Shown piece after piece: positions 28,409-34,469 of a stretch of DNA of 64,000 nucleotides; within the stretch, counting starts at the first letter, position 1, and every line of letters begins with the position of its first letter. The translations under genes and the position numbers were made by a program. This stretch comes from Kiritimatiellia bacterium (GTDB lineage Bacteria; Verrucomicrobiota; Kiritimatiellia; RFP12; UBA1067): contig JAFQYM010000045.1 in NCBI GenBank assembly GCA_017406465.1, positions 1-64,000 of the forward strand. The letters run 5' to 3'. The notes beneath the pieces were generated by a model. It was not told the origin of the DNA. It was given only the letters and a program-made list of their open reading frames with translations, and ran no database searches.

Positions 28409-30250
28409 TCAGGCGAGTCCGGTCACCTCGGTCTCAAGGCGGATGCCGAACTTGAAAAGAACCTTGTTTCGCATAAGCCGCGAAAGCGCAAGGAAGTCAC
28501 TCGGCGTCGCGCCAGGACCAGAGACGATGACATTCGCATGCTCCTCCCAAATGTATGCGCCGCCGACTCTAAGGCCCTTCGCGCCAGCCTCTTCGAGAAG
28601 CCGCCCCGCAAAGTCGCCAGGAGGGTTCTTGAATACGCTCCCCTTCGTTCCAGGCGGGAAGTTCTTGCGCCTTGCGAGAAAGTCCGCAGGCGTTCCCTCT
28701 TCGCAGACGGAATTGCACCACTTCACATCCTGTATCTCGCCGTTGATCGCGCTTGTGCGGTAGCCAAAGCCACATTCCTCGGCCGGGATCCATTTGCCAT
28801 CGACCTTGACTTCCGAGATGACTTCGGAAATCGAATGTCCAAACGCACCAGCGTTCATCTTCACCCAGCCGCCGATCGTTCCCGGGATTCCCGCCATCCA
28901 CGGACATAGCGACGGATACGCGGCAAGAAGCGAGGCGCCGCTCTCCCCTGCGGGACCATTGGCCTTGACATATTCGACAGAGAGGTTCAAGTCGCTCTTC
29001 CAGGTGTTTGAGCCGTGTCCGATAAGGATTTTCTTAAGCACCGCATCCGCTCCACGCCTGACGATCGGCGCGAGCGCGATTATGTCGCCAGCGCCAAGAA
29101 GAAGCGTGACGTCCTCAATCCCCATTGAATTGCGAGCGTGTTCCCACGCCTCTTCGCAGCTTCGCGCGAGCTTCACATTGACGCCCGCATCGCGCGTCGC
29201 CTTGTAGAGATCGGCAATGTCGCCGCCTTCAATCGGCGGTTCGAATGCCGCATAAACAGGGCAAAGCACGACTTCGTCCGCAAGCGCAAAGGACGCCGGG
29301 AAGTCAGCAAGCAGCGCCTTCGTGCGCGAATAGCGGTGCGGCTGGAAAAGAACACGCAGGACTCCGCGGCAGATTTGCCGCGCCATCGCGACTGCACACG
29401 CCATCTCCGCAGGATGATGTGCGTAGTCGGTGTATACGCCGTCTATTAGTTTCTGGAAGCGCCTGTCGGGAAGCGCCGCGACTGCCTCTGGAAGCGCCGC
29501 GGCTATTGCCCCCGGAGAGTGTCCGCGGCGAAGAGCGACTTCAACTGCGGCGCGGGCGTTTTTCCTGTTGTGCTGCGCAAGGGCGGCAAAAGCGTCTACC
29601 GCATCGAGAAACTCAAGCGGCGCGAGTTGTTCGCCTTCTACGACATCGCCAGACTGTCGCCGCGCCGTATTGAAGCAGGCGTCGTAGTCGGCTCTCGTCT
29701 TGAAATGGTCTGGGTGGTCGTAGTCGCAGTTCGTGACGACGAGCGTCTTGGCGCGATAGAGCGCGAGGGTGCCGTCCGATTCGTCCGCTTCGACGACAAG
29801 TACGCCCTTCCCGCCTGCGACGGGAAAATCGCCTGTCTCGCCGCCAATCGCCCATTCAACGTCTTCGCCAAGAGCGAGAAGAAGTTTCGCAACAAAAGTC
29901 GCCGTCGTTGTCTTGCCGTGGCTGCCGCATACGGCGATCGAGTCGGGCGCGGCGTTTACGATTTCGGCAAGCACTTCTCCGCGCATCCGCACGCGTCCAG
30001 CAGAGGCGACAAGCTCAGTGTTGTCGCAAGCGACGGCAGGAGTCGCAACTACTTCATCAACGCCGTCAACATGGGCTGGGTCATGCCCCAAGGAGACCTG
30101 AATGCCAAGCGACTCAAGCCAGTCGGTGCGCGCGCTTCGCGAGAGGTCGCAGCCCGACACCGTGCAGCCTCTGTTTTTGAGAAGCACGGCCAGCGCGGCC
30201 ATCCCGACCCCGCCTATGCCAATGAAATGCACTGTCCTCCGCCCGTTCAT
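28409..30250 (-). CDS. murCB: MurC-MurB fusion, both halves shortened
   Basis: A 613-aa cytosolic fusion for peptidoglycan precursor synthesis. The MurC part (UDP-MurNAc:L-Ala ligase, about 1-395) has GIGGVGM (11-17), P-loop GSHGKTTT (109-116), EADESDG (154-160), the HN at 227-228, DYAHHPAE (275-282) and QPHRYSRT (303-310). The MurB part (UDP-GlcNAc-enolpyruvate reductase, about 405-613) has HGSNTW, AGIPGTIGG (453-461), FGYRTS (495-500), GSVFKNP (537-543) and EEHANV. Motifs are intact but spacing is not. The MurC central domain is about 70 residues short around 196-226, and the MurB FAD-binding region before 450 is cut to about 45 residues. The near-leaderless start is at 30250. Confidence 0.9.
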   Translation of the reverse strand: MNGRRTVHFIGIGGVGMAALAVLLKNRGCTVSGCDLSRSARTDWLESLGIQVSLGHDPAHVDGVDEVVATPAVACDNTELVASAGRVRMRGEVLAEIVNAAPDSIAVCGSHGKTTTATFVAKLLLALGEDVEWAIGGETGDFPVAGGKGVLVVEADESDGTLALYRAKTLVVTNCDYDHPDHFKTRADYDACFNTARRQSGDVVEGEQLAPLEFLDAVDAFAALAQHNRKNARAAVEVALRRGHSPGAIAAALPEAVAALPDRRFQKLIDGVYTDYAHHPAEMACAVAMARQICRGVLRVLFQPHRYSRTKALLADFPASFALADEVVLCPVYAAFEPPIEGGDIADLYKATRDAGVNVKLARSCEEAWEHARNSMGIEDVTLLLGAGDIIALAPIVRRGADAVLKKILIGHGSNTWKSDLNLSVEYVKANGPAGESGASLLAAYPSLCPWMAGIPGTIGGWVKMNAGAFGHSISEVISEVKVDGKWIPAEECGFGYRTSAINGEIQDVKWCNSVCEEGTPADFLARRKNFPPGTKGSVFKNPPGDFAGRLLEEAGAKGLRVGGAYIWEEHANVIVSGPGATPSDFLALSRLMRNKVLFKFGIRLETEVTGLA

Positions 30251-31348: not shown

Positions 31349-32170
31349 ATGAAAGAGAACAAGATAACCGCCCCGCACGGAGCACGCCGAGTGCTGATAC
31401 TCCTCGGCATAGTCGTATGCATTGCCGCCATCGTCGGTATAGCCGTCGCCTACGGCAAACTTCGCGACATCTGGCTTGAGCAGTGCGTCATAACCGACGT
31501 CGCCTCGCAGGTTTCAATTACCGACGGAAAGATGGTCCGCGCCGACGTGATCGCATACGAGTTCGGACTGAAGAATGGCGCAAACCTCGCTCTCATCGAC
31601 TTCGCGGAAAAGCGCGTGGAGACGATGAAGAAGATCCCGAACATACGTGACATCTCGATAGCGAGACATCTTCCGGACAAAGTCTCGATAACGGTCGAAG
31701 AACGCGTTCCCGCCGTTCGCCTCGGCATCATGGGGCAAAAGACCGATAGCGGCCGCGTGGCGGACACCGAGGGCGTCGTGTTCATCTCGTCGAGCGGAAC
31801 GCAGATGCTTCCCATGATTCGAGAAGCCACAGCCCCCGGAACGAAGAAAGGCCAGCGCCTTTCGGGGCGCGCACTTGCGGCGCTCAGGCTTCTCGAGACA
31901 TGCCGCGACAAGTTCCGCGAACTTGCCGCAATAGAGGCCGACACATCAAAGCCGGACTACATAACGATCGTGCTCGGAAACGACTACAGCACGGCAAAGA
32001 TAGCATGGGATGGAATGGACGACCCGTCTGACGCGACACAAAGCAAACTTGAACGACAGCTAAACGAGCTCACAAAAGCCTACTGCTCGCACGTCGACAG
32101 CGGCATACGCATCTGGAACGCCACGCAACCAGGAAAAGTCTACGCCGACACTCAGAAAGGATCGCTATGA
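31349..32170 (+). CDS. ftsQ: Cell division protein FtsQ
   Basis: A 273-aa bitopic membrane protein. A short cytosolic N terminus and one transmembrane helix (about residues 14-36) are followed by a periplasmic POTRA-type region (IPNIRDISIARHLPDKVSIT, VEERVPAVRL) and a beta domain. FtsQ links FtsA/FtsZ to the later divisome. Sequence similarity is modest, but length, topology and position between ddl and ftsA make the assignment solid. It overlaps ftsA by 4 nt. Confidence 0.88.
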   Translation: MKENKITAPHGARRVLILLGIVVCIAAIVGIAVAYGKLRDIWLEQCVITDVASQVSITDGKMVRADVIAYEFGLKNGANLALIDFAEKRVETMKKIPNIRDISIARHLPDKVSITVEERVPAVRLGIMGQKTDSGRVADTEGVVFISSSGTQMLPMIREATAPGTKKGQRLSGRALAALRLLETCRDKFRELAAIEADTSKPDYITIVLGNDYSTAKIAWDGMDDPSDATQSKLERQLNELTKAYCSHVDSGIRIWNATQPGKVYADTQKGSL

Positions 32171-33366
32171 GCAACTTCTACGCAGCATTGGAGATCGGCA
32201 CGACGCGCACCGTCCTCGCCATAGGCGAGACCGAGACAGGCGGCCGGCTCAAGATGACATGCCATGCCGAGATACCGTCTACAGGCGTGCGCAAAAGCCA
32301 GATACTCGACATCAACCAGGCGACGAGCTCCATCAAGAGCGTGCTAAGCGCCATCGAGAAAAAGCAGCTTGAGGCCGGAAGCAAGATAACTCTCGGCAAT
32401 GCCTATCTCGTCGTCTCCGGCCAGCACATAAAGGCCGGGCCCTTCCAGGGAATGGTGCCGATCGAGGGCGCCAAGGTCGGCACGGAAGAACTCGACGCCG
32501 TATTCAGGAGCTCGCGGACGATGCAGATCCCGAAGGATCGCGAGTTCCTCGACATCGTCGATCAGGACTACGAGGTTGATTCCCTTCGTGGCATAACAGC
32601 GCCACGCGGCATGTCAGGACGCATACTAAAGCTGAATACCCTCCAGATCCACGCCGACAAGAACAGGATCGACGACGCTCGCACGGCCGCCGACGCGGCA
32701 AAGCTCGAGATACGGGAACCCCTCTTCGCTGCCACATGCGCAGCCGAGGCAGTGCTCGAGGAGCACGAAAAGCGCAACGGCGTACTCGTCCTCGACATTG
32801 GCGGCGGCTCGACTGGCTATGCGGTCTACTCCGACGGCCACCTTGCGATGACAGGTGTCGTAGGCGTAGGCGGCGACCATGTGACGAACGACATCGCCCA
32901 TGCGTTCCAGACGACAAACGCGCAGGCGGAACAGCTAAAGACGGAATCCGCCTCGGCCATCATCGGAACCCCAGGCGAGACGCGCGTCAAAGTGCCTGGC
33001 TCTTCGCCACTCATGGAATCGCGCACTATCTCGCGCCGTGCGCTTGACACCGTGGTGAATGCGCGACTTAGGGAGCTTTTCGCAGTCATACGAGAGACGC
33101 TCGAAGACCAGGACCTGCTGAACCGCCTGCATGCGGGGGCAGTCCTCACCGGAGGCGGCGCCGCCATGCGCGACATCGACGCCCTCGTCCAGCGAGAGCT
33201 CGGCATGCCGACGAGAACGGGTAAGCCCATCCACGTCGACGGACTCTACGGCGAGAAGAATCCGGCATCTTTCGCAGCCATGGCCGGCGCGATCATTTAC
33301 GCAAGCCGAAACGACGACGACAAGTCGTCAATCCTCAGCGGACTCATAGGGAGGTTTTTCACATGA
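32167..33366 (+). CDS. ftsA: Cell division protein FtsA
   Basis: A 399-aa actin-fold ATPase that anchors FtsZ filaments to the membrane. Phosphate-binding motifs are ALEIGTTRTVLAIGE at the N terminus and LVLDIGGGSTGYAVY near 205. The 1C domain follows the first motif. The adenosine loop AVLTGGGAAM is near 320. The tail ends in SSILSGLIGRFFT, a plausible amphipathic membrane-targeting helix. It overlaps ftsQ and ftsZ by 4 nt each, so the three are coupled. Confidence 0.94.
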   Translation: MSNFYAALEIGTTRTVLAIGETETGGRLKMTCHAEIPSTGVRKSQILDINQATSSIKSVLSAIEKKQLEAGSKITLGNAYLVVSGQHIKAGPFQGMVPIEGAKVGTEELDAVFRSSRTMQIPKDREFLDIVDQDYEVDSLRGITAPRGMSGRILKLNTLQIHADKNRIDDARTAADAAKLEIREPLFAATCAAEAVLEEHEKRNGVLVLDIGGGSTGYAVYSDGHLAMTGVVGVGGDHVTNDIAHAFQTTNAQAEQLKTESASAIIGTPGETRVKVPGSSPLMESRTISRRALDTVVNARLRELFAVIRETLEDQDLLNRLHAGAVLTGGGAAMRDIDALVQRELGMPTRTGKPIHVDGLYGEKNPASFAAMAGAIIYASRNDDDKSSILSGLIGRFFT

Positions 33367-34469
33367 GCGATTCATCGTCCATGATGCTCATCGGCATCGG
33401 AGGCGGCGGCTCGGCCATCGCGCGCGGCGTTCGCCGCGCCTTCGGCGAGGGGCTCAGGTTTCTCACGATCGACACAGACGCCGCAACGGCGGCGGACGGA
33501 GATGAATTCCTCCTCATTGGAGGCGACCGGCTTTCGGGTCGCGGCTCAGGCGGCGACGTCGTGGCGGCGCGTCTTGCCGCCGAGGACTCGATCGATTCAC
33601 TCGACCCAGAGATGGAGGGAGTACGCCTCGCCGTCATCGTTACGTCGCTCGGCGGCGGCACCGGCGGCGGCGCAACGCTTGAGACTGTCAAGCGGCTCGA
33701 CTCGCTCGGGATACCGTCAATCGTCTTCGCTACTACGCCCTTTACGTTCGAGGGCGAGGACCGCCAGCGCTCGGCACGCGGCGTCATGGCGATGATAGAG
33801 GAGGCCGCAGGAGCGACTTTCTTCGTGCCACTGGACAAACTTGTCGGAAACGCGGAGCGCTTCGACGACGCGATGCGACGCGCTGTCGACACGATGGCAT
33901 CGGCCGTCACGCTCTTCTGGCGCCTCGTCGAAAAACCAGGGTACCTGAGGCTTGACGCCGAGCGCATCCGCCACCTGGTCGCAAAGGCCGGACGCGGCAG
34001 ATTCGCCGCGGTCTCGTCGCAGGGTCCCGAACGTGCCCGCGACATAGGCGACATGCTCACGCGTGCGCCGCTCCTTACGACCGGCTCAGGCCCCGTGAGG
34101 GCGATACTTTGCGGAGTGCTCGCAGGAGACGACCTGCGGCTCAGCGAAATCGGCACGATATCAGAAAGCGTCCGTTCAGCATTCGGCAATCAGGCGACTT
34201 CCTTCGAACTCGCCACTGTAAACGACGAAGATACGTTCTCCGGGCGCATTTCCACCGTCCTCCTGCTCTTCGAGGCGAACACAAAGGACGATTCTGGCGA
34301 AAGCCCCGGCGGCGTCATCGCCAACAAGCGCAAAAAGCGTGTTTCGAAACCGCTCGGCGTAGGCCCTCAGGGACGCGGGCGCTTCAACAATGCCGAGCCA
34401 ACCATCTGGAATAACGAGGACCTCGACATTCCGACGTTCCTGCGGCGCGGCATTAACCTGGATATCTGA
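33363..34469 (+). CDS. ftsZ: Divergent FtsZ
   Basis: A 368-aa tubulin-fold division GTPase. The glycine-rich loop GIGGGGSAIA (11-20), the tubulin signature GGGTGGG (97-103) and a C-terminal tail DIPTFLRRG that would bind FtsA are clear. The T7 synergy loop, normally NVDFADV, reads RLDAERI (196-202). The Asn and the second catalytic Asp are replaced, only the middle Asp being kept, so GTP hydrolysis may be slow or organised differently. It overlaps ftsA by 4 nt; mutL starts 1 nt after its stop. The identity is firm and the catalytic consequence is inferred. Confidence 0.93.
   Translation: MSDSSSMMLIGIGGGGSAIARGVRRAFGEGLRFLTIDTDAATAADGDEFLLIGGDRLSGRGSGGDVVAARLAAEDSIDSLDPEMEGVRLAVIVTSLGGGTGGGATLETVKRLDSLGIPSIVFATTPFTFEGEDRQRSARGVMAMIEEAAGATFFVPLDKLVGNAERFDDAMRRAVDTMASAVTLFWRLVEKPGYLRLDAERIRHLVAKAGRGRFAAVSSQGPERARDIGDMLTRAPLLTTGSGPVRAILCGVLAGDDLRLSEIGTISESVRSAFGNQATSFELATVNDEDTFSGRISTVLLLFEANTKDDSGESPGGVIANKRKKRVSKPLGVGPQGRGRFNNAEPTIWNNEDLDIPTFLRRGINLDI

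Follow-up and report, generated by a model that had tools for sequence, protein, structure and literature searches.

Introduction

GTP hydrolysis that depends on the T7 aspartates drives the treadmilling of FtsZ, and this mechanism is regarded as conserved across species. In Staphylococcus aureus FtsZ (SaFtsZ), D46, Q48, R143, N208, D210, and D213 are named as conserved residues with key roles in hydrolysis or assembly; a swing of D210 puts the water in place, a potassium ion is contacted by Q48 and N208, and the substitutions D213N and N208L abolish assembly (PMC8936486). For Escherichia coli, 7% of GTPase activity is cited as remaining in the D212A protein (PMC8142252), and cells carrying FtsZ-D212G divide only with suppressors (PMC5405962). 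A natural FtsZ proposed to work at low GTPase activity is that of "Candidatus Thiosymbion oneisti," which keeps its catalytic residues (PMC8953583). In tubulin, the T7 residue K254 of beta-tubulin leaves the GTP of alpha-tubulin unhydrolyzed, while the corresponding residue of alpha-tubulin, E254, has a catalytic role (PMC13394414).

Few bacterial FtsZ groups are as divergent as that of the Verrucomicrobiota (PMC9871819), and division in the PVC group is diverse (PMC5147048). The protein described here is a member of this already known divergent group, and the sequence-only reading of the locus was right about the PVC setting. For a loss of T7 catalytic residues in Verrucomicrobiota FtsZ we found no published description in a literature search that reached few subscription journals. 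Compared with FtsZ from E. coli and S. aureus, our protein has the same predicted fold, the same dcw position by ftsA, the T4 loop, D209, E138, R142, and the FtsA-binding peptide, but it differs in having arginine in place of both D212 and N207 and in having lost N165, F182, N186, and the potassium ligand Q47 (E. coli numbering). Unlike the Thiosymbion protein, it has catalytic residues replaced.

An apparently single, divergent ftsZ in a conserved division cluster

The window, a stretch of 64,000 nucleotides, is positions 1 to 64,000 of the forward strand of contig JAFQYM010000045.1 from Kiritimatiellia bacterium GCA_017406465.1, a rumen-type gut bacterium (Verrucomicrobiota; Kiritimatiellia; RFP12; UBA1067). 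Its division genes are as follows.

31349-32170, plus strand: ftsQ, with an FtsQ-type POTRA domain
32167-33366, plus strand: ftsA, canonical (TIGR01174, 272.8 bits, above the cut-off of 175.9)
33363-34469, plus strand: ftsZ, 368 amino acids, PF00091, the only gene of the FtsZ/tubulin family found in this assembly
34416-34445, plus strand: conserved C-terminal peptide EDLDIPTFLR, the FtsA-binding tail, from the phylum alignment

The ftsZ product carries the GTPase domain, scoring 59 bits against PF00091 (Tubulin; cut-off, 33). Against the NCBIfam FtsZ equivalog TIGR00065 it reached 108.5 bits, below the cut-off of 295.2, and FtsZ was nonetheless the sole match in the NCBIfam search; since that cut-off is a naming threshold and no biological feature, the shortfall marks divergence. 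An AlphaFold model (mean pLDDT, 85) matched FtsZ structures in the PDB with an E value of 2e-30 at about 22 to 28% identity to solved FtsZs and placed the start of helix H8 at residue 199, so that the modeled fold and H8 start are FtsZ-like. The order ftsQ-ftsA-ftsZ is conserved, with ftsZ beside ftsQ-ftsA as in the dcw cluster, and ftsA lies on the same strand as ftsZ in 78 of 80 related loci. The tail, rightly described from the sequence as remaining, is conserved across the phylum, its D, P, and R being invariant in a 56-row alignment.

Three further observations concern this neighborhood. A 276-amino-acid open reading frame overlaps ftsZ on the opposite strand (33359-34189, minus strand), and nothing marks it as a gene. 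MurC and MurB are fused into one 613-amino-acid protein (28409-30250, minus strand), and 17 of 20 matching open reading frames in related loci span both parts. Slower evolution of FtsA than of FtsZ was considered and found unsupported, the median difference being 0.6% identity.

A profile search with PF00091 found one gene above the cut-off in the organism's own genome (3.5 Mb, 83% complete), and a clade-derived profile also gave one match; a second, weak tubulin-like match (C69) lies inside an AccD-like gene and is a chance hit. The search also covered 58 related genomes, of which 21 reach a completeness of 90% or more; 52 had a match and none had a second FtsZ/tubulin match above the cut-off. 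The second canonical ftsZ that could have overturned the initial reading was therefore found neither in the genome itself nor in close relatives. A canonical FtsZ might still lie in sequence missing from the MAGs, making the gene at 33363-34469 a paralog, but we consider this very improbable given the 58 genomes and the adjacency of the same gene to ftsA across the related loci. The open reading frame is the genuine, vertically inherited, and apparently only FtsZ of this ruminant-gut Kiritimatiellia lineage. FtsW/RodA genes are present in this genome and its relatives, while MinC and ZapA were not detected in it or in 20 relatives (21 genomes).

A further FtsZ/tubulin-like protein, distant from the first and roughly 367 amino acids long, is encoded by some members of the class and phylum and has the motifs GIGGAGSKLAS and SxGGGTGNG (L137:687-1787, plus strand; L138:435-1538, minus strand; also L139 to L142). 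It was not found in the window's genus and possibly represents an FtsZ-like family outside division.

The T7 loop is rebuilt and fixed

The T7 (synergy) loop lies within the interval 33945-33975 that had drawn attention to this gene.

33948-33968, plus strand: T7 loop core RLDAERI, residues 196 to 202 (E. coli 207 to 213), from gap-free alignments
33948-33950, plus strand: R196 (E. coli N207), R or K in 60 of 81 clade sequences
33954-33956, plus strand: D198 (E. coli D209, S. aureus D210, the swinging catalytic Asp), D in 78 of 81
33960-33962, plus strand: E200 (E. coli A211), a conserved new acid, E or D in 79 of 81
33963-33965, plus strand: R201 (E. coli D212, S. aureus D213), basic in 78 of 81

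Alignments with solved FtsZ structures (phmmer; E. coli and Klebsiella FtsZ) and with 190 phylum FtsZs both cross the loop without a gap. The phmmer alignment pairs pgylrlDaeRirhlv with pglmnvDfaDvrtvm of a solved FtsZ, and the E. coli stretch PGLMNVDFADVRTVM runs ungapped against PGYLRLDAERIRHLV of this protein, so that N207-V-D209-F-A-D212 corresponds to R196-L-D198-A-E200-R201. The canonical N-x-D-x-x-D is replaced by R-L-D-A-E-R, and the alignment shows no conserved copy of that motif elsewhere in the protein. These alignments bear out the original description of the loop, in which Asn and the last Asp had each become Arg and a Glu was shifted by one. The accompanying claim that catalytic residues were lost holds for N207 and D212 but overlooked the equivalent of D209, which is conserved as D198.

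Position 212 is arginine in 29 of 30 genus members and histidine in the other. Across 81 clade sequences, all from metagenome-assembled genomes (MAGs), it is R in 72, H in 5, K in 1, Q in 2, and S in 1, and never acidic; position 207 is R in 45 and K in 15, position 209 is D in 78 (96%), and position 211 is E in 72 and D in 7. Named matches in this clade are mostly MAGs from ruminants and other gut sources labeled Kiritimatiellae, Lentisphaerae, or Verrucomicrobia. On the tree, the window's clade, in which residue 165 is mostly not Asn and residue 212 is mostly basic, takes in five families of the order (f1 to f3, f5, and f6), with position 212 mixed in f6. One MAG titled Akkermansia muciniphila (L223) has an FtsZ near the Kiritimatiellia type (36% identity to the window FtsZ) and is probably a misnamed record.

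Neutral decay, or an error of assembly or alignment, would be one way to account for so divergent a protein (108 bits against a cut-off of 295), but we give it almost no credence, as it is already contradicted by strong purifying selection and by recurrence of the motif in some 80 MAGs or more. Sharing of the 212 substitution by genus and clade MAGs means that it is neither chance nor an assembly error. The arginine is written with five or more synonymous codons among 16 genus members, and dN/dS for ftsZ is about 0.07 to 0.2 in the closest pairs, which together indicate that the new state is selectively kept and not decaying. Among 297 core columns, D198 ranks 49th in conservation, E200 78th, and R201 85th. 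The T7 loop is rebuilt and fixed: D212 has become Arg, N207 has usually become Arg or Lys, and D209 is kept.

The nucleotide pocket is altered on its guanine side

33471-33485, plus strand: T2 loop DTDAA; D39 (E. coli D45) kept, A41 replacing the potassium ligand Q47
33651-33674, plus strand: T4 phosphate loop GGGTGGGA (GGGTG), conserved in the genus comparison
33831-33833, plus strand: L157 in place of the guanine contact N165, L in 79 of 81
33873-33887, plus strand: start of H7, MRRAV, with F182 replaced by M171 and N186 by V175 (guanine side)

N165, F182, and N186 contact guanine in FtsZ structures. All three have been lost across the clade, which means that the nucleotide side has changed as well, and N24 has also become Ala at this site. 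On the phosphate and ribose side, the T4 loop, D45 of T2, E138 (80 of 81), and R142 (75 of 81) are nearly invariant. Retention of the nucleotide-binding loops, as stated early on, thus holds for T4, E138, and R142 but not for N165, F182, N186, N24, and Q47, now L, M, V, A, and A. By the SaFtsZ list of six key residues, three are kept (D46, R143, and D210) and three are lost (Q48, N208, and D213). Loss of both potassium ligands and a positively charged side chain at 207 would be consistent with the protein supplying its own substitute for the ion.

Such a pocket could mean that the protein has for the most part given up its nucleotide switch, with assembly on FtsA and membranes proceeding without GTP or with another nucleotide. 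Clade-wide loss of the guanine contacts speaks for this, as does the rarity of the step, with just 6 changes of N165 counted on the tree of the phylum. Near-invariance of the phosphate and ribose side speaks against it, and we regard it as improbable. A link between a basic 212 and loss of N165, sought by independent pairs, was set aside because there were too few pairs.

Most of the phylum has a broken T7 motif

We surveyed 190 FtsZs of the same phylum, Verrucomicrobiota, taking T7 conservation outside the phylum from the literature. N-x-D-x-x-D is complete in only 17. Both acids are present in 36 proteins, the acid at 209 only in 118, that at 212 only in 29, and neither in 7, where about 24 would be expected if the positions were independent and the rows unrelated; at least one acid is therefore kept in 183. 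Position 212 is T, S, or A, and not basic, in many members. In the complete, high-quality genomes of family f27 (L054 to L067), T7 reads NLDFATL, D212 having become Thr, and the rest of the site is canonical; other complete genomes of the phylum also have N-L-D-F-A-T there, and FtsZ of this type would be easier to test than that of the window's clade. Breakage of the motif is not local but spans most of the phylum.

When the T7 columns are left out of the tree building, the acid state changes a minimum of 18 times at each of the two positions, 212 and 209. With a quick tree, long branches, and the root fixed as DxxD, a Pagel-type likelihood test of correlated evolution favored dependence between 209 and 212 (LR 17.9, 4 df, p = 0.0013), and in that model the rate of losing 212 falls almost to zero after loss of 209. 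The pattern favors a single-Asp reading: D209 alone would position the water, the new arginine would reach the gamma-phosphate of the neighboring subunit as a trans-acting arginine finger, and hydrolysis and treadmilling would continue by an altered mechanism. The movement of D210 in SaFtsZ and the conservation of D209 in the clade agree with this account. However, a sister-pair (independent-pairs) test of the single-Asp pattern was not significant (median p = 0.625), and many phylum members have T, S, or A at 212 in place of a basic residue. Beta-tubulin, moreover, keeps the matching Asp, yet its Lys254 site is nonhydrolyzing. We judge this explanation unlikely, although more plausible than loss of the nucleotide switch.

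A proposed tethered filament with slow or blocked hydrolysis

The reading we prefer, with a probability of roughly 0.48, is that this FtsZ forms an FtsA-tethered filament in which interfacial GTP hydrolysis is slow or blocked, the arginine acting like K254 of beta-tubulin. Tubulin residue 254 is the position matching FtsZ D212. Filaments would still assemble head to tail and be tethered by FtsA through the kept C-terminal tail; R201 of the top subunit would face the gamma-phosphate of its neighbor and stabilize the interface without supporting fast hydrolysis, much as Lys254 does at the nonhydrolyzing site of alpha-tubulin. Turnover of the ring would then be slow or powered by something besides canonical GTP hydrolysis. 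Altered filament turnover, proposed at the outset, remains the most reasonable inference in light of the E. coli D212A activity.

Several points count against the preferred reading. Because D213N and N208L abolish assembly of SaFtsZ, mere loss of these residues should be harmful. Retention of D209 in the clade and of at least one acid in nearly all of the phylum suggests that some catalysis is still under selection. The comparison with tubulin is one of analogy, the two proteins being distantly related: both would have a basic residue where the partner-activating subunit has its catalytic acid (K254 versus E254), but here every interface of a presumed homopolymer would carry it, there is no heterodimer, and kinship is at the level of the superfamily.

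Overall, the sequence-only reading was partly supported, having missed the conserved basic replacement, the changed guanine pocket, and the phylum-wide breakage of the motif.

Implications for division in the Verrucomicrobiota

Apparently sole FtsZs in which one acid has been lost many times while the other is nearly always kept, together with one clade bearing a basic residue, make up a large natural set, with which the need for GTP-driven FtsZ turnover in division becomes directly testable using natural proteins. The set is also a caution against generalizing from model species alone about how FtsZ works and how conserved it is as a drug target. In its widest form, the idea is that a whole bacterial family has every FtsZ interface locked in beta-tubulin style by a basic T7 residue and carries out cytokinesis without hydrolysis-driven treadmilling, within a phylum that has repeatedly dropped one of two catalytic Asp residues taken to be essential; we hold this combined claim to be doubtful. 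The clade may run its division ring without the usual GTP-hydrolysis motor.
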